From Cohnella sp. SGD-V74 (lineage in GTDB: Bacteria; Bacillota; Bacilli; Paenibacillales; Paenibacillaceae), in contig NZ_PVYW01000017.1 in assembly GCF_003001675.1 (NCBI RefSeq), positions 124,001-188,000 of the forward strand: a stretch of 64,000 bases of DNA, in the 5' to 3' direction. The notes beneath the pieces were generated by a model. The model worked only from the letters and a program-made list of their open reading frames with translations. It was not told where the DNA came from and did no database searches. This document shows, piece after piece, positions 4,749 to 18,244 of the stretch (position 1 is the first letter of the stretch; the number at the start of each line of letters is the position of its first letter). The position numbers and the translations under genes were made by a program.

Positions 4749-5579
4749 CTACTTGACCGCCCCGTTCGTCACGCCGGAGAAAATATAACGCTGCATGAGC
4801 AGGAACACGATAACAGTAGGAATGAAGATCAGCAGAATACCCGCCGAGATGACGTTAAGCTGCGCCGCGTTCGGACCGACGAAATCGTAGATGGCGGTGG
4901 ACACGACTTTCAATTTCCGCGAAGGCATGTAGAGGAACGGAATGTAGAAGTCGTTGTAGATCGAGATCGTCTTCAGAATAATAAGCGTCGCGGTAGCCGG
5001 TCCGAGCAGCGGGAAGATGATCGACCGGAAAATGTTGAAATACGACGCTCCTTCGATCATCGCGCTCTCGTCCAGATCGCGCGGCACGCTTTTGATGAAT
5101 TGCATGTAGATCGTAATTTGCAGCACGTCCGCTCCGATGTACAGCAATATCGGCGCCCATATCGTGTTGTACGCTCCGATCGCCTGAACGACGCCGAACG
5201 TGGCCACTTGCGTCGTGACGAGCGGAATGACCTGAATGAACAAGTACAATCCGAATATCGGCTTGCGGAGCGCGAAGTCGAACCTGCTCAGGCAGTACGC
5301 GACCATCGTTCCGATCAGCACGTTGCCGGCCAGCGAGAACAGCAGCACGACCGCGATATTTTGAAAGCCGAGCCCAAGCCGCCCGATCTCGAACACCCGA
5401 GCGAAGTTGTCAAAATTCAGCCAGTCTGCCGGGAAAGCAAGACCCGACTGGTAATATTCCACCTGAGTCTTGAACGCGCCGACGACGACCGAATAGATCG
5501 GAAACAGCACGATCAGAACGGCCATCGAGAGCGACAGGTACTTCAACGTCCGAACGACGGCGGATTCGTTGCGCTTCAT
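4749..5579 (-). CDS. Sugar ABC transporter permease (MalG-like)
   Basis: Inner-membrane permease of a CUT1-type importer, 276 residues with about six membrane segments. It carries the EAA-loop motif that contacts the ATPase (DLDESAMIEGASYFNIFRSIIFP, mid-protein) and ends in the usual YIFSGVTNGAVK. The ATG at 5579 lies two bases after the stop of the upstream permease, so the two are translationally linked. An open frame extends far upstream of this ATG but only overlaps the partner gene out of frame. Together the pair should import manno-oligosaccharides for the cytoplasmic mannanase; no binding-protein gene lies beside them in this window. Confidence 0.92.
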   Translation of the reverse strand: MKRNESAVVRTLKYLSLSMAVLIVLFPIYSVVVGAFKTQVEYYQSGLAFPADWLNFDNFARVFEIGRLGLGFQNIAVVLLFSLAGNVLIGTMVAYCLSRFDFALRKPIFGLYLFIQVIPLVTTQVATFGVVQAIGAYNTIWAPILLYIGADVLQITIYMQFIKSVPRDLDESAMIEGASYFNIFRSIIFPLLGPATATLIILKTISIYNDFYIPFLYMPSRKLKVVSTAIYDFVGPNAAQLNVISAGILLIFIPTVIVFLLMQRYIFSGVTNGAVK

Positions 5580-5581
5580 GA

Positions 5582-6460
5582 TCAGTCCGCCCCCTTGAAC
5601 ACGAATTTGCGCTGGACGAAGATGATGAGCATGACGATGAACAGCAGCAGTACGGCCATCGCCGACGCTTTGCCGAAGTTCTGGTACTTGAACGCCGTAT
5701 CGACCGTCTCGATGACGAACGTGGACGTTCCGTTCGCTCCGAGCATGATGATGTACGGGATATCGAACGCCTCCAGCGCGCCGGTCAGCGTCAGGATCAG
5801 CATCAGCTCGATAACGCGCCGTATGCTGGGCAGCGTAATGAACCGGAAGCTTTGCCACCCGGAGGCGCCGTCGATGCTCGCGGCTTCGTACAGGTCTTCT
5901 GGGATTGACTGCAGAGCCCCGATGAAAATGACCATGGACAGGCCGAAATATTTCCACATCGAGATGAACGCGAGCGAAAAGTTGACGATGTCCGGATTGC
6001 CGAGCCACGCCTGCTGCCACGACCCGAGCCCGATCGCCTCCAGCACGACGTTCAGCGAGCCGTATTCCGCGTGATACAGGTTTTTGAACATGATCGCCGT
6101 CGCCACGCTGTGCAGCACGTACGGTAAAAACAGCAGCACCCGGAAAACGTATCTCCCTCTCAGCTTTCCGTTCAGCAGGACGGCAAAGTAAAGCGCGACT
6201 GCCGTCTGGACGAGCCCGCCGATGAAGTAGTAGGCGTTGGCGCGAAAGGCCCGGAACACTTCCGAGTTGGAGAAAATATCCCTGTAATTCGCCAGTCCGA
6301 TAAACTTCTGATCGAACCCTACCCCGTCCCAATCGGTGAGGCTGAAATAAAACAGCGCCGCGGCGGGATACAGCGAGAAAGCCGCCATCAGCGCCAGCGG
6401 GAGGGTTAGAAACCCGAACAGGATGAGGTATTTCTGCGTTTTGTAGCTAAGGTTGAACAT
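5582..6460 (-). CDS. Sugar ABC transporter permease (MalF-like)
   Basis: First permease of the mannan-locus importer, 292 residues with about six membrane segments and an EAA loop (EDLYEAASIDGASGWQSFRFITLP). The ATG at 6460 follows a GAAAGGGGG ribosome site. An in-frame upstream ATG at 6523 is rejected because it would put the catabolite-repression site inside the coding region. It is the first gene of the minus-strand transporter operon, with a promoter and cre-like site just upstream. The ATPase is missing here, as is usual in Bacillales, where a shared MsmX-type ATPase serves many importers. Confidence 0.92.
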   Translation of the reverse strand: MFNLSYKTQKYLILFGFLTLPLALMAAFSLYPAAALFYFSLTDWDGVGFDQKFIGLANYRDIFSNSEVFRAFRANAYYFIGGLVQTAVALYFAVLLNGKLRGRYVFRVLLFLPYVLHSVATAIMFKNLYHAEYGSLNVVLEAIGLGSWQQAWLGNPDIVNFSLAFISMWKYFGLSMVIFIGALQSIPEDLYEAASIDGASGWQSFRFITLPSIRRVIELMLILTLTGALEAFDIPYIIMLGANGTSTFVIETVDTAFKYQNFGKASAMAVLLLFIVMLIIFVQRKFVFKGAD

Positions 6461-6508
6461 AGGCTTTCCTGCCCCCTTTCCGATGTCGTCCGCGGATGCA
6501 CGATCCTG

Positions 6509-6558
6509 AGGAAACGCTTTCAATCCCCATCATTATAAAATGAAACGTTCAACCGTTT
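6509..6558 (-). promoter_or_regulatory. Promoter with CcpA cre-like site for transporter operon
   Basis: On the minus strand a perfect -10 TATAAT (6537-6532) has a weak TTAAAC -35 seventeen bases upstream. The 14-base sequence TGAAAGCGTTTCCT (6522-6509) fits the cre consensus TGWAARCGYTWNCW at every position and starts within a few bases of the expected transcription start. This is the arrangement expected for carbon catabolite repression by roadblock. Confidence 0.65.
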
Positions 6559-6636
6559 AAGGGAATACGTTTGTTTTCCTTGTCTTATTTTGGGATAATT
6601 TTCACCTAACTCTTCATCCGACTGTTCGCTTGGTCT

Positions 6637-8103
6637 TCATCTAACTCTGTCCCGAAACTCTTTAGGCGTGCTGCCGGTCGCTTTTTTGAACGCTTTATTG
6701 AAATAAGCCGGATCCGTGTAACCGACGAGTTCTCCGACCTCGTATGTCTTAAGTGACGGACGCTCGCGAAGAAGCGCCTTCGCACGCTCCATGCGCACGA
6801 AGATGAGATAATCGGTAATCGTCTCCCCTGTCTCCGTCTTGAACAGCTTGCTCAAATAACTCGGCGTGAGAAACACCGCCTCCGCGATTTTGCACAGCTC
6901 GATTTCCTCGGCATAACGTTTGGCGATATACGCTTTGACCGTCTCGACGACGCGGCTTTCTTGCCGCTGCTCCCGCAAACGGCGGAACTTCTCGTGAACG
7001 GCGGCGAAGAAAGCGGCCGCGCACGCTTGCCGGTCCGCGTAACGGCGCGGATCGAAGGCCTCCTTCTCGCCAAGCAGCGCGAAGACACCCTCGCAGCCTT
7101 CCCGCAGATCCTCCCAGGACGGATAAGCCCGCATCCACTCGCCCCACCATCCGACCAGCGCCTCATGCACGCCGTCCCAGTCCGATATCGACAACGCCGC
7201 CCGGCTCGCGCGATCGAACAGAACGAACGGATGAACGGACGGCTCGGCCGCTTTCTCCAGATGCAGAAAATCGGCGAACGCGTGTCGGCCCGGTTCGAAC
7301 CAGGCGCGATGCAGCGCCGCTTCCGCCTGTTCGGCCGCCTTCGGCAGCCAGATCGGCCCGCGGAACGGCTCGCTGGCGCCGACGCGCACATGGCGCAGAA
7401 CGGACATTCGCTGCATCAGCGTCTGCCCTTGCTCGCGGATCGTATCGTAATGGTCGGTCAGCCGAATCGAGACGATAACCGTCGTTCCGCCGCCGAACTC
7501 GAGCGACGTCCACGGCCGACCGACAACGTCCAGCGCGCCGTGCAGTTCCTTGAGAGGCGCGGCCGGCTCCGTCCTCACGCGCACGACCGCGTAAGCTTCG
7601 CGAAACAGCGGATGGTCCTGCAGCTCCTTCGCCGCTTCTTCCCGAAACTGTCCGGGCACCGCCTCTTCATCCGGCACGAGCAGCAGCCGGAGCCGTTTCT
7701 CGAAATCGGCCGCGCTGCGCTCGGCTTCCTCTTCGATCGCCGCATGCATGCGCGCGAGCATCTCGGACAGCTCCTGCGGATCGACCGGCTTGAGCAAATA
7801 ATCTTCCACGCCGTAGCGCATCGCCTGTTTGGCAAACGCGAAGTCGTCGAACCCGCTGATGACCGCGCATTTTATCCCGGGAAACTCTCTGCGCAGCTTG
7901 TCGATCAGTTCGAGACCGCTCATGCCCGGCATTTTGATGTCCGTTATGACGAGCTCCGGCAAGATGCCCGCCTCAATCTTCTCGAACAAATCCGCCGCTC
8001 CCGAGCATGCGGCTGCCACTTCGTATCGCTCCCCCGCTTGTTCGATCAGCTTCGCAAGCCCGCCGCGAATTCGTTCCTCGTCGTCTACGACCGCAATTTT
8101 CAT
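6637..8103 (-). CDS. Response regulator, receiver plus AraC HTH (YesN-like)
   Basis: Receiver domain at residues 1-120 with D7/D8, phospho-acceptor D55 in TDIKMPG and K105 in LLKPVD. A long middle region follows, then a C-terminal AraC double helix-turn-helix (about 390-488; IAEAVFLTPSYLSKLFKTETG and VGYTDPAYFNKAFKKATG). Its start overlaps the kinase stop by four bases (ATGA), so the two form one unit. The pair is transcribed toward the transporter operon that begins at 6460 and probably activates the mannan genes; the inducer is not evident. Confidence 0.92.
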   Translation of the reverse strand: MKIAVVDDEERIRGGLAKLIEQAGERYEVAAACSGAADLFEKIEAGILPELVITDIKMPGMSGLELIDKLRREFPGIKCAVISGFDDFAFAKQAMRYGVEDYLLKPVDPQELSEMLARMHAAIEEEAERSAADFEKRLRLLLVPDEEAVPGQFREEAAKELQDHPLFREAYAVVRVRTEPAAPLKELHGALDVVGRPWTSLEFGGGTTVIVSIRLTDHYDTIREQGQTLMQRMSVLRHVRVGASEPFRGPIWLPKAAEQAEAALHRAWFEPGRHAFADFLHLEKAAEPSVHPFVLFDRASRAALSISDWDGVHEALVGWWGEWMRAYPSWEDLREGCEGVFALLGEKEAFDPRRYADRQACAAAFFAAVHEKFRRLREQRQESRVVETVKAYIAKRYAEEIELCKIAEAVFLTPSYLSKLFKTETGETITDYLIFVRMERAKALLRERPSLKTYEVGELVGYTDPAYFNKAFKKATGSTPKEFRDRVR

Positions 8104-10187: not shown

Positions 10188-13100
10188 TTATCTTATCCTA
10201 TTTTCTCCACCTTCAGATTTGTGTGTGAAGGAATGATCTCGGGCTGCTTCTTCCACCTCATGGAATGCCCAATGCGTCTCTTTCACATCTGTAAACGCTG
10301 GTGTGCTCACTTCATACAATGGACCTCGGTCAAACATGCGGTTCATCGCTTTGACGGCTTCGGCGCGTGTGAGATTTCCGTTCGGACGGAACACTCCGTC
10401 CTCATAGCCATCCAGAATTCCCGCTTGCTTATTGGCCGCAATCTCCAATACCGCCCAATGACCTGTGATATCCGTAAATGCCGTAATACTGTCTTCCTCA
10501 GTTCCTAACCTAAATTGTTTATATCGCGCTGCGATTGCCGCCATTTCGGCGCGCGTGATCGCTGCGTTCGGGTTAAAATCCCCTGCAGCGTCCCCTCTCA
10601 TCAAGCCTTGCCGCTTCACATATTCAATCGCTCCTGCCGCCCAATGAGAGGCCGATACATCGGAGAACGGGGCTGCTGCCGCTTTTTTCGAGTCATCAAC
10701 CCCCAGATTTCTGGCGATCATCGCCGCGATTTCCGCTCGTGTCACGGTACGGCTTGGCCCGAATGTTCCGTCTGCATACCCTCGAATATACGCTTCGTGG
10801 AAATTCACAGCAGGCTCTTCCACATGAAGAATCGTGAACGTACTAAATTTGCTCACCTCAAACTCGATACCTGGCAAACCATTCTTGTATTCTACGATTT
10901 TCCCTTTTACTAGACGCTTCTCCCCATCACTGTGCTCAATGAAGACCTTGAGTTCATCCAAGAATGCTGCACGCTCCGCTGCATTCGATGGGAGCTGAAC
11001 ATCACGCAAAGGTAATATAAGGGTGACCGGCCGATTCGGCATGTTCGTTTCAATCGTCATAGGTCTTGCAACGACAGTCACCTTGGCATCCTTTGCCGAT
11101 TCTCTAACTACCCGTTCCGATCTTGCACGATTCTCTACTTCTTGCCGCTGCGATTTTTCCTTCAACGGAATGACGCGGAAGTATAAATCCTCTTCAACAG
11201 TATCCATGGATCGATGCGGGATTAGAAGCCTTATATTTTCTGTGAATATTTCAAGGCTCACATTTTTATGAAACAATTCTCTTATTGCTTCTCTTAGAAG
11301 GTTAACACCAACTTGAGCGACTCTGTCCTCTTCGTCCGGAATCATGATGCGAGCCGTCGTTTGACCCGCTTCTGCAATACGCTGCGCCGCTTCTCTCGCT
11401 CGATCGGGCGTTAATGTGACCTCATCTCTTACTCTGCCGCTTGGCTCGGTAATACGGGTAATTTGCGTTTGCATGACCGTTGTAGCCGAGCCTACATCCC
11501 CTGTTTCTACCGGTACGTTGATGATCTGGGCGGCCGGCTGATCGGATGAGGATGAATCATCACTTGGCCTTGTAATGTCGATCGTATACCTTTTCATCTT
11601 TGTTCCATCGTAGGCTGTGACAACCACATCGATCGTATTTCGTCCCGCATGCAGCGGGACAGTTGTTGCAACGCCGCTTATCGCGCTTATCCCGTTCACT
11701 TCCAGACTTGCGCCCCCGCTTGCTGCCGTGGCTGTTACATCCACACTGTTTGCCGATCTTCTTACGTTAGTCCGATAGTTGACCGTATCTGCTGCGAACG
11801 CCGGGCTTAATGTCCCCTCACTCAGCGTCAAGCCGCTTAAATTGGCATTCACAACCCATTTCAAATAGGGATACCGTTCATTCTCTTCGATCTCCCAGAT
11901 GTTATCGAAGTCCCAGCCGGCAAAAGTCGCTTGCTGCTTCATCTCGGCTGTAGACTTACCATAGGATCGCTGGCTTCCCATACTTGTTGTTTGGTTTGTC
12001 GTCTCTTTATCCCAGTAGGAATGATTGACCTTGCCGCCTATATTTTCACCGACTAAGCCGCCGATATAACCACTGCTGACATCCACCTTGCCGACTGCAT
12101 AGGAGTTGCTAATTGTTCCATCTCTTCCACCATAAGTACCGCCATAAAGACCGCCAACCAAACCGCCTGTATAACTTTCAGAAGGGATGACATCGCCAGT
12201 TGCATAGGAATCGCTAATACTTCCGTCGCTTACTCCAACCAAGCCGCCTAGAGCAGCAATGCCTTCCACTGTACTGCTCGCATAGGACTGATTAATGTCT
12301 CCTGCATTGACACCGGCCAAACCGCCTAGAACATCACCGCCTGTCACCTTTCCACTCGCAGACGAGTAACTGATATTTCCGTTGTTATAACCGACCAAGC
12401 CGCCGGAATTACTGCGGCCCTCCACCTTACCGCTCACAGAGGAGTAACTGATGCTTCCGTGGTTATAACCAACCAAGCCGCCGACAAGATCGTAACCGGC
12501 TACCGCTACATTTACGTCCTCTAGTTTTATGTTGGAGATTTTACTCGCAGTATCCGTGTGGCCAAACAAACCGACAACATCTTCGCTGGAACGATTAATA
12601 TATAGACCTGTAATCTTAAACCCCTTGCCGTCCAATGTACCGTTAAACCAATCAATCGGCGCCCAGCCTTCTCCTGTGTTATACGGCAGCACATCAAGGT
12701 TAATATTAGCACCAAGCTTGAAATGCGCATTCAGATGCTCGCGTATTTGATTGAAATGAGCTGCTGTTTTAACAATAAATGGATCGTCCGCTGTACCTGA
12801 ACCAGTCCAAGGCGATCCCGCACCTTCGCGATCCGCTTGCAAATAGGGATAGCTATCACCCTCGTCGATCGCCCAGATGTGATCGAAATCCCAGCCGCCA
12901 AAAGTCGCTTGCTGCTTCATATCAACGGTAATCTTCCCGTATTCATCGCTGCTTCCGGCACTTGTTGTCCGGGTTGTCGTCTCTTTATCCCAGTAAGAAG
13001 CAGTGACGGTTCCACCCGCATTTTCACCCGCTAAGCCTCCGACATCGCCATGTCCTGTCACCTTGCCAACCGCATAGGAGCTGCTGATGCTTCCGCCATC

Positions 13101-14840
13101 GTTAGAACCGACCAAACCGCCTGCATGACCGTTAGAAGCGTTGACATCGCCGCTTGCATAGGAATCGCTAATATTTCCATCGTTTGCTCCAACCAAGCCG
13201 CCTGCAAAATTAGCGCCTTCCACTTGACTTCTCGCATAGGATTGACTAATGTTCCCTGCATTCGCACCGGCTAAGCCGCCTACCCAATCACTGCCTGTTA
13301 CCGCTCCGCTCACATAGACATTGTTTATCGCTCCGCCATTCATCCCGACCAAGCCGCCAACACTAGAATTACCTGTTACCTCTATATTCTCAAGCCGTAC
13401 ATTCGAGATTTCAGCCCCGTTGCCAGCAACGCCAAACAGGCCGACCTCATTTTGACTAGGACGATTGATATGCAGCCCTTTAATTTTATACCCGTTGCCG
13501 TCCAGGATGCCGATAAACGGATCCGACGTTGTCCCGATTGGTTCCCAACCCTCGTCTGCGCCGTATTCCAAGCTAAGATCGATATCCCCGCCAAGCTCGA
13601 AATATGCATTCAGGTAGTTGCGCACCTCATTCAATTGAGCGGCTGAAGCAATAAGGAATGGATTGTTCTCCGTTCCCTTGCCTTCACCGCTCCAAGGAGG
13701 CGGTCCCGCTCTATTCAATTCCCATCTCAATATGGGATAGCTTCCACTTTCGGCTATCGCCCATGTTTCAAAGAAGTTTTCCCAAGTATCGGCAAAAGTG
13801 GATTGTTGCTGCATTTGCTCTGTCGTTTTTCCTTCACCGGCTGCGCTTTGATCTTGTCCAGAGGTCTGTATATCCCAGTAGGAATTCGTAACCGTGCCAG
13901 AGTTGAAACCGATCAAGCCGCCTATATTATTGTGACCTGTCACCTTGCCGCTCGAATAAGTATTGCTAACCACATTAGAATTATAGCCTACCAAGCCGCC
14001 TACATAATTGCCGCCGTCTACCTCTCCGCTCGCATAGGCGTGGCTAATATCTCCTGCATTTCGACCGACTAAACCACCGACCTCTTTATTGCCTGTCACT
14101 TTACCGCTTGCATTGGAATTGTTAATGGTTGTAAAGCTAAAATTATAGCCTACCAAACCGCCTACACTTTCAACACCGGTTACGTTGGCGGTTGCATAGG
14201 AGTCCGTAATATTTTTGCTGTTATCACCTATCAGCCCACCGACCGAATAATCTCCTGACACCTTGCCGCTCACAGATGAGTTGTCAATACTCCCTTCGCT
14301 ATTCCATCCTACCAAACCGCCGACAGCAGCATAGCCTGTTACATCTACATCCTCTAGCCTAACATTGGAAATCACAGCCTGATTACTACTCACTCCAAAT
14401 AGTCCTACATTCTCATCAGCAGGACGGTTAATATACAACCCCGTAATCTTGAATTCATTCCCATCCAGTGTACCGTTAAACGACGAAATCGGCTCCCAGC
14501 CTTCCCCTTCGTTGTATGGCGGTACATCCAGATTAATATCGGCACCAAGTTTGAAGTGTGCATTCGGATGCTCGCGCATTTGATTTAAATGAGCGGCGGT
14601 TGTAATTACATATGGATCGTCCACGGTTCCTTCGCCGTTCCAAAGAGCCGGATCGCTCATCGTGATTCCTAACAGCTGTGAAAGGTCTCCATAAACGGCA
14701 GAAGTTATCGATGGGGTATCATCCCCGGCCAAAGGCGAATCATCCGCTCTAACCGTGGATAGCGGCAGTATCGCAAACAATAACGTCGCTATAATGAGTA
14801 GGCTAATCTTTTGTTGTATCCTGCGTTGTTTTAACATCAT
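10188..14840 (-). CDS. Large GLUG-repeat, SLH-anchored surface protein
   Basis: Secreted cell-surface protein of 1550 residues. A signal peptide (about 1-33, ending near VRADD) is followed by three similar modules of about 300 residues. Each opens with a sequence like GTADDPFIVKTAAHFNQIREH, carries many GLUG-type repeats (VGGLVGYN...GSISNSYA) and closes with a YWDKETT segment. A cadherin-like beta-sandwich follows (LSGLTLSEGTLSPAF, about 1000-1100), then a linker region and about three SLH motifs (from about 1343) that would bind secondary cell-wall polymer. The ATG at 14840 has GGAGG seven bases upstream. Base composition looks lower in GC than the neighbours. A role in adhesion or surface coating is plausible but not shown. 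Confidence 0.88.
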   Translation of the reverse strand: MMLKQRRIQQKISLLIIATLLFAILPLSTVRADDSPLAGDDTPSITSAVYGDLSQLLGITMSDPALWNGEGTVDDPYVITTAAHLNQMREHPNAHFKLGADINLDVPPYNEGEGWEPISSFNGTLDGNEFKITGLYINRPADENVGLFGVSSNQAVISNVRLEDVDVTGYAAVGGLVGWNSEGSIDNSSVSGKVSGDYSVGGLIGDNSKNITDSYATANVTGVESVGGLVGYNFSFTTINNSNASGKVTGNKEVGGLVGRNAGDISHAYASGEVDGGNYVGGLVGYNSNVVSNTYSSGKVTGHNNIGGLIGFNSGTVTNSYWDIQTSGQDQSAAGEGKTTEQMQQQSTFADTWENFFETWAIAESGSYPILRWELNRAGPPPWSGEGKGTENNPFLIASAAQLNEVRNYLNAYFELGGDIDLSLEYGADEGWEPIGTTSDPFIGILDGNGYKIKGLHINRPSQNEVGLFGVAGNGAEISNVRLENIEVTGNSSVGGLVGMNGGAINNVYVSGAVTGSDWVGGLAGANAGNISQSYARSQVEGANFAGGLVGANDGNISDSYASGDVNASNGHAGGLVGSNDGGSISSSYAVGKVTGHGDVGGLAGENAGGTVTASYWDKETTTRTTSAGSSDEYGKITVDMKQQATFGGWDFDHIWAIDEGDSYPYLQADREGAGSPWTGSGTADDPFIVKTAAHFNQIREHLNAHFKLGANINLDVLPYNTGEGWAPIDWFNGTLDGKGFKITGLYINRSSEDVVGLFGHTDTASKISNIKLEDVNVAVAGYDLVGGLVGYNHGSISYSSVSGKVEGRSNSGGLVGYNNGNISYSSASGKVTGGDVLGGLAGVNAGDINQSYASSTVEGIAALGGLVGVSDGSISDSYATGDVIPSESYTGGLVGGLYGGTYGGRDGTISNSYAVGKVDVSSGYIGGLVGENIGGKVNHSYWDKETTNQTTSMGSQRSYGKSTAEMKQQATFAGWDFDNIWEIEENERYPYLKWVVNANLSGLTLSEGTLSPAFAADTVNYRTNVRRSANSVDVTATAASGGASLEVNGISAISGVATTVPLHAGRNTIDVVVTAYDGTKMKRYTIDITRPSDDSSSSDQPAAQIINVPVETGDVGSATTVMQTQITRITEPSGRVRDEVTLTPDRAREAAQRIAEAGQTTARIMIPDEEDRVAQVGVNLLREAIRELFHKNVSLEIFTENIRLLIPHRSMDTVEEDLYFRVIPLKEKSQRQEVENRARSERVVRESAKDAKVTVVARPMTIETNMPNRPVTLILPLRDVQLPSNAAERAAFLDELKVFIEHSDGEKRLVKGKIVEYKNGLPGIEFEVSKFSTFTILHVEEPAVNFHEAYIRGYADGTFGPSRTVTRAEIAAMIARNLGVDDSKKAAAAPFSDVSASHWAAGAIEYVKRQGLMRGDAAGDFNPNAAITRAEMAAIAARYKQFRLGTEEDSITAFTDITGHWAVLEIAANKQAGILDGYEDGVFRPNGNLTRAEAVKAMNRMFDRGPLYEVSTPAFTDVKETHWAFHEVEEAARDHSFTHKSEGGENRIR

Positions 14841-15088: not shown

Positions 15089-15256
15089 ATGGGGAGAAAC
15101 AGACTTCCTTACGCTCGTCTCTGCGAAACGCGAGGATGCACGAAAAAGCACTACGCCAAAGGCCAGTGCAAACTGCATTACTTTCGTTCCTGGCGCAGCA
15201 AGAGTCGTTCGGCGAGCGCTTGCGAGGAAGAGGAAGCTTCGGCAAAATCCGGTTGA
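15089..15256 (+). CDS. Small zinc-finger-like protein, 55 residues
   Basis: An ORF below the usual length cut-off. The N-terminal half carries a CxxxxCx9CxxH pattern: C12, C17, C27 and H30 within LCETRGCTKKHYAKGQCKLHY, followed by basic residues. The pattern GCxxxxyakGxCxxHyxR is common in small bacterial and phage zinc-ribbon-like proteins. An AGAGG ribosome site lies eight bases before the ATG. The Glu-rich tail (EEEEAS) is followed by a TGA stop. Function unknown; nucleic-acid binding is the obvious guess. It lies about 115 bases from the left recombinase-associated palindrome and is read toward it. Confidence 0.55.
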   Translation: MGRNRLPYARLCETRGCTKKHYAKGQCKLHYFRSWRSKSRSASACEEEEASAKSG

Positions 15257-15289
15257 TCGCAAGCAAGCTCGGGAAAATCGCGCACAAAA

Positions 15290-15316
15290 AAGCCGGCGGG
15301 TTCGCTCCGCCGGCTT
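15290..15316 (-). terminator. Terminator for the recombinase transcript
   Basis: Perfect ten-base stem AAGCCGGCGG / CCGCCGGCTT with a seven-base loop. On the minus strand it runs into TTTTTTG. It would stop a minus-strand transcript coming from the recombinase gene. Confidence 0.8.
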
Positions 15317-15370
15317 CGTCGCCTTCCTATGAGCCGATGTATGAAGACCGGCGAATAGGGTATGATAATC

Positions 15371-15398
15371 ATGTCGAACAATAGTGATTGTTCGACAT
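15371..15398 (+). repeat. Left palindromic site flanking the recombinase gene
   Basis: A 28-base site with perfect 11-base arms ATGTCGAACAA / TTGTTCGACAT around a six-base centre TAGTGA. The 11-6-11 layout is that of Xer/dif-type sites. A 23-base stretch is repeated, in inverted orientation, at 16433-16455 on the far side of the recombinase gene. On the plus strand it is followed by TTTTTT, so it may also act as a terminator. Confidence 0.7.
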
Positions 15399-15450
15399 TT
15401 TTTTGTTTAATTATCCCTTCTTTGTTACTCATTATAAACGACCGAATCTT

Positions 15451-16404
15451 TCATAACAATACATTTTTCAACACACCGTGCATGCTTTCGGCCACGAAAT
15501 CCGGAGCGGCTTTCTTCATCAACTCAACCGTGTGCAGGTAGCGCTGCGTCGTATTGATCTGCACGTGGCCCAGCGTCTGCTGCACCTGTTGAAGCGATGC
15601 GCCGTTCAGCAGCGCCATGGTCGCATTCGTATGCCGAAGCCAATGGGGCGTCACCGGCTTGGAAATCCCGCACTCCCTGCTCGCCCTGTTCACGATGCGC
15701 TCTACCTGACGGGACGTAATCGGAAAGACCCGGCTTTGCCGGTTCACATGCGCAGATCCGCCATGCAGCTTCAGCCGGATGGAAGGGTCGTTATGCAGCT
15801 TCCATAACGCCTCCGGCATTTTCACCTGCCTCGTCTTGCCTCCCTTGCCGTCCGCGACGGTCAGCCACGCGCCGCTCTCCAGCGGGTCCGTAACCACATC
15901 GCCCCACCTCATCTGCACCAGCTCCGATACCCTCAGTCCCAGTATGACCATATAAAGAACCATCATCCATTCCCGTACGCTCTTGGCGCTCAAATAGGTC
16001 AGCAATTCGGTCAGCTCGCGCTGGGTCAGAAAATGATGCCCGCTCGTTACCCGCACCTTGGGCAGTCGGATGGACGAGGCGGGATTATGCGAGAACAACG
16101 CGATATTGGCGTCGCTCCCCCATCTGTAAAACGAGCGCAGCGGTGCGATCAAGCTGGCGATAGTCGAAGCGTTCAGCGGTTTGTTCCCGGACGTTCCCCG
16201 CAGCAAGGATGATTTGTATCGCTCCAGATCGTGCCAAGTGGCTTCGCCCAAAGGGGTTGCCCCGATGAACGATCGAAAACGGCGAAGCGCCCGTTCGTAA
16301 TTACGGATCGTATTCGGCCGATGATACCCGGCCAGGAAGCTCTGGATCATCTGCTCTTCGTCCAACACAGCCGCTCCGTTCGAGAGCTTGCGGTCCGCAT
16401 TCAT
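15451..16404 (-). CDS. Tyrosine recombinase (XerC/D-like)
   Basis: Complete 317-residue site-specific recombinase. The N-terminal SAM-like core-binding domain (about 12-105) is followed by a catalytic domain with all expected residues: R158 (GLRVSELVQM), K187 or K190 (ADGKGGKTRQ), H254 and R257 (HWLRHTNA), H280 (LGH) and nucleophile Y289 (QRYLHT). The ATG at 16404 has AAAGGAG eight bases upstream. The gene is tightly bracketed by two inverted copies of a dif-like palindrome, one about 50 bases past the stop and the other about 25 bases before the start codon. It has no excisionase or phage genes beside it, which argues against an ordinary prophage integrase. It could be an invertase, a resolvase or the core of a tiny mobile element. 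Confidence 0.9.
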   Translation of the reverse strand: MNADRKLSNGAAVLDEEQMIQSFLAGYHRPNTIRNYERALRRFRSFIGATPLGEATWHDLERYKSSLLRGTSGNKPLNASTIASLIAPLRSFYRWGSDANIALFSHNPASSIRLPKVRVTSGHHFLTQRELTELLTYLSAKSVREWMMVLYMVILGLRVSELVQMRWGDVVTDPLESGAWLTVADGKGGKTRQVKMPEALWKLHNDPSIRLKLHGGSAHVNRQSRVFPITSRQVERIVNRASRECGISKPVTPHWLRHTNATMALLNGASLQQVQQTLGHVQINTTQRYLHTVELMKKAAPDFVAESMHGVLKNVLL

Positions 16405-16429
16405 GTCATTGGCTCCTTTCTATCGGTGA

Positions 16430-16457
16430 ACTTCGAACAATCACTATTGTTCGACCT
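16430..16457 (-). repeat. Right palindromic site flanking the recombinase gene
   Basis: Arms TCGAACAA and TTGTTCGA surround the centre TCACTA on the plus strand, which is the reverse complement of the left site's TAGTGA, so the two sites point in opposite directions. The eight inner bases of each arm match the left site exactly; the outer arm bases have diverged. No T-run follows on either strand, so this copy is not a terminator. It lies in the leader of the recombinase gene. Confidence 0.7.
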
Positions 16458-16508
16458 CGCTTGTCGGGCGGCTCCGCCGCCATAGAACAAGAAAGGAGGA
16501 TTTGAAGG

Positions 16509-17090
16509 ATGTCGAACCTGATCCGCTCCGAGCTTCATGCTCTTGGACTGCGGAAAGATCCCGCGACTTTCTCGCATAGCGTACGGGTAGGCCTGCTGGC
16601 TCAAGCCGCCGCCAGGCAGCTCGGAATGCCGGAGGACGAAGAACGGATGTTCACGGCCGCCTGCAGCTTTCACGATATCGGGAAGCTTCTCGTCCCGCAG
16701 GAGCTGCTCGTCAAACGACTCCCGCTCGACGAGCAGGAACGGGAGCGTATTCGCGAGCACCCGCTCCTCGGCGTTCGCCTTGTTCGCCGACTCGGCTGGC
16801 GGGACCCGAGAATGATCGCGACCGTGCGCTCCCATCACGAGCGCTGGGACGGAACGGGATATCCGGACGGACTCCGAGGCGAGAGCATTCCGCCTTGGGC
16901 GCGCCTGTGCGCCGTCTTCGATTCCTTCGACGCCATGGTCCAGACCCGCTCCTACAATCGGGTCAAGACGGCGGCGGAAGCAATGGACGAGCTTAGAAAG
17001 CAGAGCGGACTCCAATTCGACCCGGCCTCCGTCGAGCTGTTCTTCTCCATTCCGGAAATAGCGATTGAAAAAATACGGCGTTATCGTTAA
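16509..17090 (+). CDS. HD-GYP domain phosphohydrolase
   Basis: Compact 193-residue HD-GYP protein, nearly all catalytic domain. The metal-binding HD pair is intact (H55-D56 in SFHDIGKLL) and the GYP signature is present (HHERWDGTGYPDGL, about 109-122). Proteins of this family hydrolyse cyclic di-GMP or related nucleotides. No input domain or membrane segment is seen. AAAGGAGGA lies eight bases before the ATG. It is followed after 29 bases by a second HD-GYP gene on the same strand. The right palindromic recombination site is about 50 bases upstream of its start and overlaps the region where its promoter should be. Confidence 0.88.
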   Translation: MSNLIRSELHALGLRKDPATFSHSVRVGLLAQAAARQLGMPEDEERMFTAACSFHDIGKLLVPQELLVKRLPLDEQERERIREHPLLGVRLVRRLGWRDPRMIATVRSHHERWDGTGYPDGLRGESIPPWARLCAVFDSFDAMVQTRSYNRVKTAAEAMDELRKQSGLQFDPASVELFFSIPEIAIEKIRRYR

Positions 17091-17119: not shown

Positions 17120-18244
17120 ATGAAACCAACCGTCACTCTCCGTCCGGGACAAACGCTGGCCAAGCCGGTGCTGAACAAAAACGGGATGGTCATGCTCGGC
17201 GCCGGAACGCAGCTGACCGACAAATATATCGAACGTTTGCGAACGCTGGGCATTACAGACATCTATGTCGAAGAAGACGCCTCTTCCAGGACTCAGGGAG
17301 CGGAGTCATCGCCCGCCGCTGCTTCATCCGCCTCCGCTTCGCAGGAGAGGCCGAACAGGAAGAGAAACTCCGCCGCTTCCAAAAAGGCGGTCGACGAAGC
17401 GTTCGCCAGGCTCATCGGCAATCCGCTCATCCGCCAGCAGCTGTCCGTGCCGATGCTCGGCGACCGCTTCGTGCGCATCTATCAGACGCTGCTGGAAGAG
17501 TTGTCCGATCATCGCTTCATTAAAGACAGGCTGACCCTGCTTCATATGAAGGACCCGATGCTGTTCGAGCACACGCTCAATGTCGCTACCCTGTCGGCAA
17601 TTATCGGCTTCGCCAAACAATACTTCATCGAGCCGCTTCACGATCTGATCGTCTCTGCTCTGCTGTTCGACATCGGCATGACCCAGCTTCCCGACGAACT
17701 GCTGACCAAGAAAGGCCGGCTGACGGATTACGACCGAGGGCTTATCGAGCGCCATACGGTCGAAGGCTATCAGATGCTTGTCCATCGATCCGACTTGCCC
17801 GGAGCCGCCGCGATATGCGCCCTTCAGCACCATGAACGCTATGACGGCTCCGGTTATCCGTCGGGGCTCAGCCGTTCCAATATTCACGAGTTCGCCCAGA
17901 TTATTGCCCTTGCCGACACATACGACGCGCTCGTGTCCCGGCGGCACCATCGCAGCTCCTACACGAAGAGGGACGCCGTCGAATTTCTGCTCGGCTCCGG
18001 AGATCGCATGTTCGACTTATCGCTTGTCAAGCTGTTCGTCGGCCACATCTCCATCTATCCAGTCGGAAGCCGCGTCGTTCTCAACAGCGGGCAGACGGCG
18101 GTCATCACCTCGGTCGATTCCTCTCTCGTCCAGCGTCCGATCGTCAAAATTATCCGGGAAGGGGACGGAACCCCCGTAACATCCCCCTATGAGATCGATC
18201 TGAGGGCGCAGTTCGATCTGGTCATCGTAGACACGGCCCTGTAA
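17120..18244 (+). CDS. HD-GYP protein with altered HD motif
   Basis: 374 residues. An N-terminal domain of about 50 residues (GQTLAKPVLNKNGMVMLGAGTQLT) is typical of HD-GYP proteins. A Ser/Ala-rich linker (about 55-90) leads to an HD-GYP domain and a C-terminal tail of about 75 residues. The GYP signature is intact (HHERYDGSGYPSGL, about 237-250), but the HD motif reads LLFDIGMTQ: H is replaced by F183 and the following K by M. Loss of a metal ligand suggests reduced or absent hydrolysis, perhaps a sensor or partner for the intact HD-GYP protein just upstream. Confidence 0.87.
   Translation: MKPTVTLRPGQTLAKPVLNKNGMVMLGAGTQLTDKYIERLRTLGITDIYVEEDASSRTQGAESSPAAASSASASQERPNRKRNSAASKKAVDEAFARLIGNPLIRQQLSVPMLGDRFVRIYQTLLEELSDHRFIKDRLTLLHMKDPMLFEHTLNVATLSAIIGFAKQYFIEPLHDLIVSALLFDIGMTQLPDELLTKKGRLTDYDRGLIERHTVEGYQMLVHRSDLPGAAAICALQHHERYDGSGYPSGLSRSNIHEFAQIIALADTYDALVSRRHHRSSYTKRDAVEFLLGSGDRMFDLSLVKLFVGHISIYPVGSRVVLNSGQTAVITSVDSSLVQRPIVKIIREGDGTPVTSPYEIDLRAQFDLVIVDTAL

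Follow-up and report, generated by a model that had tools for sequence, protein, structure and literature searches.

A cassette of 1.09 kb in the genome of Cohnella sp. SGD-V74 is very probably a self-contained promoter-inversion (phase-variation) device that would control genes for HD-GYP proteins. It consists of a XerC/D-like tyrosine recombinase gene flanked by inverted near-palindromic sites (arm, TAGTGA, arm) and resides in the window, i.e., the stretch of 64,000 nucleotides analysed here, which is contained in contig C17 of the 8.24-Mb genome. The sequence features that support this reading are the inverted sites, a promoter match, the occurrence of both orientations among relatives and the presence of both junctions in three single-strain assemblies. 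The sequence-only reading of this DNA had suggested that the segment inverts itself. This suggestion gains its support from relatives and not from the strain itself, namely from 76/76 identical crossover centres, 21 flipped locus pairs (which are not independent of each other) and both junctions in three strains. The features of the locus are as follows:

15282..15322, minus strand: hairpin with T-run, likely intrinsic terminator that is faced by the promoter in the present orientation (-24.8 kcal/mol, z -4.6)
15371..15398, no strand: left recombination site, a perfect 12-4-12 palindrome that can alternatively be read as 11-6-11 around TAGTGA at 15382-15387
15431..15459, minus strand: predicted outward promoter TTGTTA-17-TATAAT (by consensus only, 10/12 matches), past the recombinase stop and inside the segment
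15451..16404, minus strand: open reading frame (317 amino acids) for the XerC/D-like tyrosine recombinase, inside the putatively invertible segment
16433..16455, no strand: right recombination site, an inverted copy with 23/23 bases complementary to the left site and its centre at 16441-16446 (TAGTGA on the minus strand)
16509..17090, plus strand: short stand-alone HD-GYP gene (193 amino acids; HD_5 at 1.5e-33; motif HHERWDGTGYPDGL), presumed first target
17120..18244, plus strand: second HD-GYP gene (374 amino acids; HD_5 at 1.1e-29; FD at the HD position), probable second target within the same operon

Sites, recombinase and predicted promoter of the window cassette

The inverted repeat comprises positions 15373-15395 and 16433-16455, which match in 23/23 bases at a spacing of 1037 nt. 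Earlier, a 23-base inverted repeat with a six-base centre and an 11-6-11 symmetry of the left copy had been described, and this proved exact on recheck. When read from the outer to the inner side, both sites have TAGTGA as their centre. The perfect arm of the right site is shorter than that of the left (TCGAACAA/TTGTTCGA), and on the plus strand the left site has the potential for a strong hairpin that is followed by TTTTTTT (T7). The degenerate site TCGNAYAANNNNNNTTRTNCGA was found at four places in the 8.24-Mb genome, all of them at two cassettes, and a reversed-pattern control gave none. The site pair is therefore not due to chance. The second cassette, located on contig C12, has two sites with the centre TTTCTG, its own recombinase and an adjoining HD-GYP-like gene. 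A genome-wide search for the site core had been proposed earlier as a check; every one of the four matches fell at a cassette and no scattered palindromes emerged, which rules out for this genome that the palindrome is a scattered terminator family. In other genomes, looser site patterns yielded additional solitary matches as well as some control matches (among the matches listed, 0 to 3 per genome and strand in one scan and none in another), so that a lone site match elsewhere means little.

The recombinase contains a Phage_integrase domain (PF00589, 3e-28) and an N-terminal SAM-like domain (Pfam). The catalytic set of tyrosine recombinases is R-K-H-R-H-Y, and R158, K187, H254, R257, H280 and Y289 are invariant in an alignment of 15 sequences that includes the window protein. 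With the Phage_integrase fold and this catalytic set, the protein belongs to the tyrosine recombinase superfamily and not to the serine recombinases that operate Hin-type switches; the earlier statement that a complete recombinase with its catalytic residues lies between the sites is borne out. Among solved structures, XerA (5hxy) is the best match (E 1.7e-31). The scores of the protein lie far below the cut-offs for XerC (131.1 vs 335.15 bits) and XerD (124.6 vs 329.6 bits), and among named relatives, Cohnella phaseoli CECT 7287 has the most similar recombinase (97% identity). The recombinase gene starts only 28 bases inward of its site. The start of its own transcription must consequently be located within the site or further out, and this transcription may be orientation-dependent. 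When 76 loci were inspected for a recombinase promoter with its -35 element outside and its -10 element inside the site, none of the spacings from 10 to 25 was clearly preferred, and a promoter at a fixed place before the site was not found in these loci either.

The -35 element of the predicted outward promoter overlaps the final codons of the recombinase gene. Within positions 15200-16600, this sequence is the best of three promoter-like sites; shuffled sequences average 0.9. It is currently directed away from the HD-GYP genes, an orientation that we call OFF, and would be directed toward them after inversion (ON), with a leader of about 105 nt. Judged by consensus, the segment thus contains an outward promoter, as an invertible promoter requires. 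Consensus scoring was extended to 74 loci of the family introduced below (L050, L053, L060, L061, L073, L087 and L102 were left out), and the outward score exceeded the inward score in 67 of them, equalled it in six and was lower in one. Mean scores were 14.9 outward, 12.5 inward and 12.6 for mononucleotide shuffles. In loci L074 and L078, the right-site centre is separated from the recombinase stop by 485 and 488 bp, compared with 66 to 268 bp in the remaining 72 loci; these two thus have extra sequence between recombinase and promoter.

The terminator originally placed at 15290-15316 stands with regard to its fold, for which energy and z score are listed above, whereas a consensus scan did not return it. 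Hairpins with other stem letters occupy the equivalent place in loci L005 and L006, the T tail of the latter being poor. Stretches with at least five T in eight bases occur inside the right site at 34 of 76 loci, inside the left site at four, outside the right site at 17 and outside the left site at nine. Given that T-runs often lie just inward of the right site, this site may also stop transcription that enters the segment. Past the terminator, on the side that the promoter faces, the minus strand carries a repeat-rich open reading frame of 1550 amino acids (10188-14840) that is surface-protein-like as judged by eye only; transcription from the promoter would reach it upon read-through. Eight of 80 loci were scanned for riboswitches between site and target, and none was present near the cassette at the gathering threshold. 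A T-box in L055 and a TPP riboswitch in L040 lie kilobases away from the cassette.

Crossover centres and neighbouring genes in the cassette family

A profile built from 15 members retrieved 202 relatives from species genomes. The top 80 of these and the window together make up 81 loci, so that all counts given here describe the nearer part of the family. A complete inverted site pair surrounds the recombinase in 76 of the 81 loci, and poor conservation of the sites beside orthologous recombinases, which an earlier proposal had singled out as a point to check, was not found. The five incomplete loci comprise three whose contigs stop at the right site or within it (L080, L082, L093), the half-site locus L061 and the masked locus L050. 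In L061 (around 9057, Cohnella thermotolerans), the left site is intact and only half of the right site is present, possibly because the cassette is locked or because of an assembly-end effect. A different deviation is seen in L058 from Cohnella laeviribosi (the same locus as L012), where the inverted repeat reaches 73 identical bases at the recombinase start and thereby duplicates the ribosome-binding site and the first recombinase codons at the opposite end of the segment.

Both sites have the same six-base centre in every one of the 76 complete pairs, which together display 33 different centres. For a quantitative comparison, 58 distinct pairs were used which stem from 71 of the 76 loci (L053, L060, L073, L087 and L102 were resolved later). 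Within these pairs, 0 of 348 centre positions and 26 of 928 arm positions are mismatched (Fisher p 4.5e-4). Between pairs, mismatch rates are 54% in the centre and 15% in the arm. Random re-pairing, a procedure that ignores kinship, gave 184 centre mismatches on average and a minimum of 150. Such a pattern, with identity confined to a six-base centre whose sequence varies from locus to locus, is what a tyrosine recombinase needs for strand exchange.

The family has a patchy distribution. At the level of the bacterial family, 62 matches were obtained in 56 of 245 genomes, all with E values of 5.9e-126 or better and with none further among the matches listed down to the cut of 1e-70. In other families of the order, four of 23 genomes have a member (G041, G043, G050, G052), and across the phylum a single genome out of 398, the window's own, was matched at 1e-60. 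The profile search also returned some loci from Brevibacillus, Aneurinibacillus, Tepidibacillus and unplaced Bacillota. Two or three cassettes are present in several genomes, three being the maximum. Co-resident cassettes have no centre in common in seven genomes (11 within-genome pairs). Note that this does not reach significance as evidence for centres private to each cassette of a genome, random locus pairs sharing a centre in just 107 of 2850 cases (3.8%).

Neighbouring genes were analysed for 80 loci, i.e., all except the masked L050, with a panel of which representatives were assigned by Pfam and the rest by tblastn at 1e-6. Beyond HD-GYP, the panel was drawn from neighbours of loci without an HD-GYP match. 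At 79 of 80 loci, a panel gene that faces outward is found within 1.5 kb of one site but not of the other, and no locus has such genes on both sides; this figure is a description and no independent test because the panel was partly drawn from the loci that were then scored. The exception is L042, where the sequence outside the right site is just 114 bp long. The median distance of the panel gene from the site centre is 188 bp. In the 79 loci, the first outward gene encodes an HD-GYP protein in 66 cases, CheW (with CheA) in six, a methyl-accepting chemotaxis protein (MCP) in three, an EAL protein in two, and CheX and SecA in one each. In 25 of the 66 HD-GYP loci, CheW, CheA or MCP matches follow among the next panel matches. 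The single SecA case, L090 from P. dendritiformis (5487-7871), has a gene for a SecA-like translocase and not a signalling gene as its outward neighbour. As assembled, 61 loci are OFF, with the gene at the recombinase-start side, and 18 are ON, with the gene at the promoter side.

When the HD-GYP protein encoded at 16509 was compared with 37 genomes of the genus, each of the 13 top-scoring matches adjoined a recombinase of the family, so that recombinase and short HD-GYP gene seem to travel together. The second HD-GYP gene is second in line in the seven closest loci as well (L033-L039). The sequence-only reading had held that a flip could affect the HD-GYP genes through the reading direction of the recombinase gene. 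Its first half is supported by position, with HD-GYP neighbours at 66 of 79 loci; the second half needs amendment insofar as a flip would mainly redirect the outward promoter. Support for a control of the HD-GYP genes by orientation thus comes from position only.

Orientation between species and within single assemblies

Comparison of related genomes for flipped loci, which had been suggested as a check, revealed such loci. Among locus pairs in which both outer flanks are conserved, 67 have the same orientation and 21 are swapped, without any same-side match in those 21; the swapped pairs are not independent and centre on L063, L078/L074, L047 versus L057 and L052, L042 versus L057, L076 versus L110, and L089 versus L099, and the counts as a whole are not independent either since pairs and loci are related by descent. 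For L063 (P. sanguinis, OFF) versus L072 (P. senegalimassiliensis, ON), the flanks are 86.9 and 81.7% identical, and identity of the segment rises from 51.4% as found to 88.0% when it is turned back. The corresponding values for the segment in L078 versus L074 are 50.6 and 82.5%. In both alignments, the switch in sequence falls at the sites. On a quick recombinase tree, at least 13 changes between ON and OFF are counted. The OFF orientation is shared by the window and its seven closest loci, and this sub-branch could therefore be locked.

Junctions of both orientations were found in three assemblies, those of Paenibacillus brevis, P. periandrae and P. daejeonensis. In P. brevis MSJ-6, one contig (L080) comprises the HD flank, a site and the recombinase and ends with the right site, and another (L120) has a different flank joined via the site to the recombinase start (71/71 bases). 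The flank of L120 resembles the far side of the L075 locus with 81% identity over 84 bp beside the site and with 93% over 1359 bp about 2 kb further out, which means that an indel in between must be assumed. In P. periandrae PM10, one and the same HD-side flank (126/127 identical) leads into the promoter end on one of the contigs L042 and L158 and into the recombinase start (133/134) on the other. The outer arm on the HD side is not the same at the two junctions (L158 and L042, right site), where its sequences are GTCGTACAA and GTCGCACAA, a one-base difference that a crossover in the centre alone does not explain. In P. daejeonensis DSM 15491, a flank similar to the far side of L066 (70% over 818 bp) precedes a third site, after which come only 12 bases of recombinase leader and then an N gap. 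All these junctions were read from assembled contigs and not from reads, and a single fixed orientation cannot explain their joint presence in one assembly, barring misassembly or a second near-identical cassette, neither of which is strictly excluded. In six loci the contig terminates no more than 350 bp from the right site, and three of these gave both junctions. For P. silagei (L054), the site count comprised only its two sites, and for Cohnella thermotolerans (L061) only the half-site was present on that side. Taken together, both orientations expected of an invertible switch are found in relatives, between species as well as within strains.

Three other explanations have to be weighed. 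The cassette may be a minimal mobile element that has the two inverted sites as its ends and transposes as a unit. The presence of cassettes beside different genes (nine target changes on the quick recombinase tree) and of two or three cassettes in several genomes fits this idea and indicates that the module was copied or moved in evolution. However, both flanks are conserved in the 67 same-orientation and 21 flipped locus pairs, and the cassette thus often stays put; moreover, it is found reversed in place and its neighbour is mostly an outward-facing signalling gene, unlike what random insertion would produce. That the cassette is such an element is very unlikely in the face of these observations. 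A Xer/dif-like module for the resolution of chromosome or plasmid dimers is brought to mind by the arm-centre-arm symmetry of the sites and by the relationship of the protein to XerA, XerC and XerD, but we regard it as extremely unlikely: there is a single dif site per chromosome, whereas the genome of strain SGD-V74 has four sites at two cassettes, each cassette has one inverted pair with up to three cassettes per genome, only 56 of 245 genomes of the family possess a member, and the protein falls short of the XerC and XerD cut-offs by the wide gap given above. In consequence, the sites, which had initially been labelled 'dif-like', are not dif sites.

The remaining explanation applies to the window copy only and overlaps with promoter inversion, which may hold for the family. 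According to it, the copy is a locked relic or a non-switching regulatory palindrome, whose sites now serve as terminators or binding sites. The strong hairpin and T7 of the left site on the plus strand, the accumulation of T-runs inside the right site (34 of 76 loci versus four at the left site) and the uniform OFF state of the window and its seven closest relatives are in its favour. It is nevertheless unlikely, given that the recombinase is intact with its catalytic residues, that the two centres match exactly, that relatives show both orientations and that a terminator role can coexist with switching.

For promoter inversion, the favoured explanation, we propose the following course of events. 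The recombinase would bind the two inverted sites and exchange strands across the six-base centre, leading to inversion of a segment of about 1.06 kb that carries the recombinase gene and the outward promoter. In the present orientation (OFF), the promoter would fire into the terminator at 15322-15282. In the inverted orientation (ON), transcription from it would run through the site and on into the HD-GYP genes at 16509 and 17120, and c-di-GMP turnover would be altered in a subset of cells. This scheme presumes that inversion is the work of the resident recombinase, that the promoter is active with transcription of the HD-GYP genes following orientation and stopping at the terminator in the OFF state, that the HD-GYP proteins degrade or lower c-di-GMP, and that Cohnella sp. 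SGD-V74 itself flips the cassette.

Comparison with known switches

In the Salmonella Hin/fljBA system, an outward promoter within the segment drives the neighbouring genes in one orientation, and Hin is a serine recombinase that is aided by an enhancer. The cassette is similar in that recombinase gene and outward promoter both lie inside the inverting segment and differs by its tyrosine recombinase, its short palindromic sites and its c-di-GMP or chemotaxis neighbours. FimB and FimE are tyrosine recombinases, which are encoded outside the short fimS segment that holds only the promoter. Tyrosine recombinase, inverted repeats and invertible promoter are common to fimS and the cassette, but in the latter the recombinase is inside the segment. 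Accounts of both systems, i.e., of the Escherichia coli fim switch and of Hin as a recombinase located inside the inverting segment, are contained in the portions of PMC5903667 consulted. Compared with XerC, XerD and XerA and their dif sites, the cassette is alike in sequence family and differs by paired inverted sites, variable centres and a patchy distribution.

A parallel with regard to the target is pdcB of Clostridioides difficile, where an invertible promoter precedes a gene for a c-di-GMP phosphodiesterase and the reference genome is OFF; in the consulted portions of this report, the recombinase is stated not to be identified (PMC9286219). Invertible promoter and phosphodiesterase target are shared, and the cassette differs in that the recombinase is encoded within the segment. 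For Clostridia, inversion signatures are described beside genes for MCPs, HD-type phosphodiesterases and chemotaxis components, and for Providencia stuartii an invertible segment that encloses its recombinase is described at a fimbrial locus (PMC5903667, in part). The kinds of neighbouring genes and the recombinase inside the segment, respectively, match the cassette and the organisms differ; this comparison is by description only, and in the portions consulted these accounts describe no common recombinase family, site or promoter (PMC5903667). A literature search judged by titles and the beginnings of abstracts, with subscription papers and preprints mostly outside its scope, returned no description of this self-encoding cassette family. 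Invertible promoters and inversion near c-di-GMP and chemotaxis genes are thus known already, and it is the predicted outward promoter in the window cassette that is new here.

The evidence is about evenly balanced for a more far-reaching proposal, namely that the cassettes form a portable family of self-encoding promoter-flipping modules, mostly in Paenibacillaceae, which were recruited repeatedly before different c-di-GMP or chemotaxis operons, each with a private six-base crossover that prevents recombination between co-resident cassettes. If true, random switching of c-di-GMP turnover and chemotaxis would be built into many Paenibacillaceae by way of a compact, self-contained module. For P. 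polymyxa, the consulted part of PMC3694910 describes the mechanism behind colony phase variation as one yet to be discovered. The family also provides dozens of natural recombinase/site pairs with a readable crossover code, useful for tests of site specificity and as independent genetic switches, and strains with both junctions in their assembly make switching directly testable. Apart from the cassette sites, a different and fully symmetric palindrome, TCGAACAAATCGATTTGTTCG, occurs at least once per genome away from the cassettes in at least eight genomes (G669, G672, G674, G677, G679, G682, G685, G687) and is possibly another conserved binding site.
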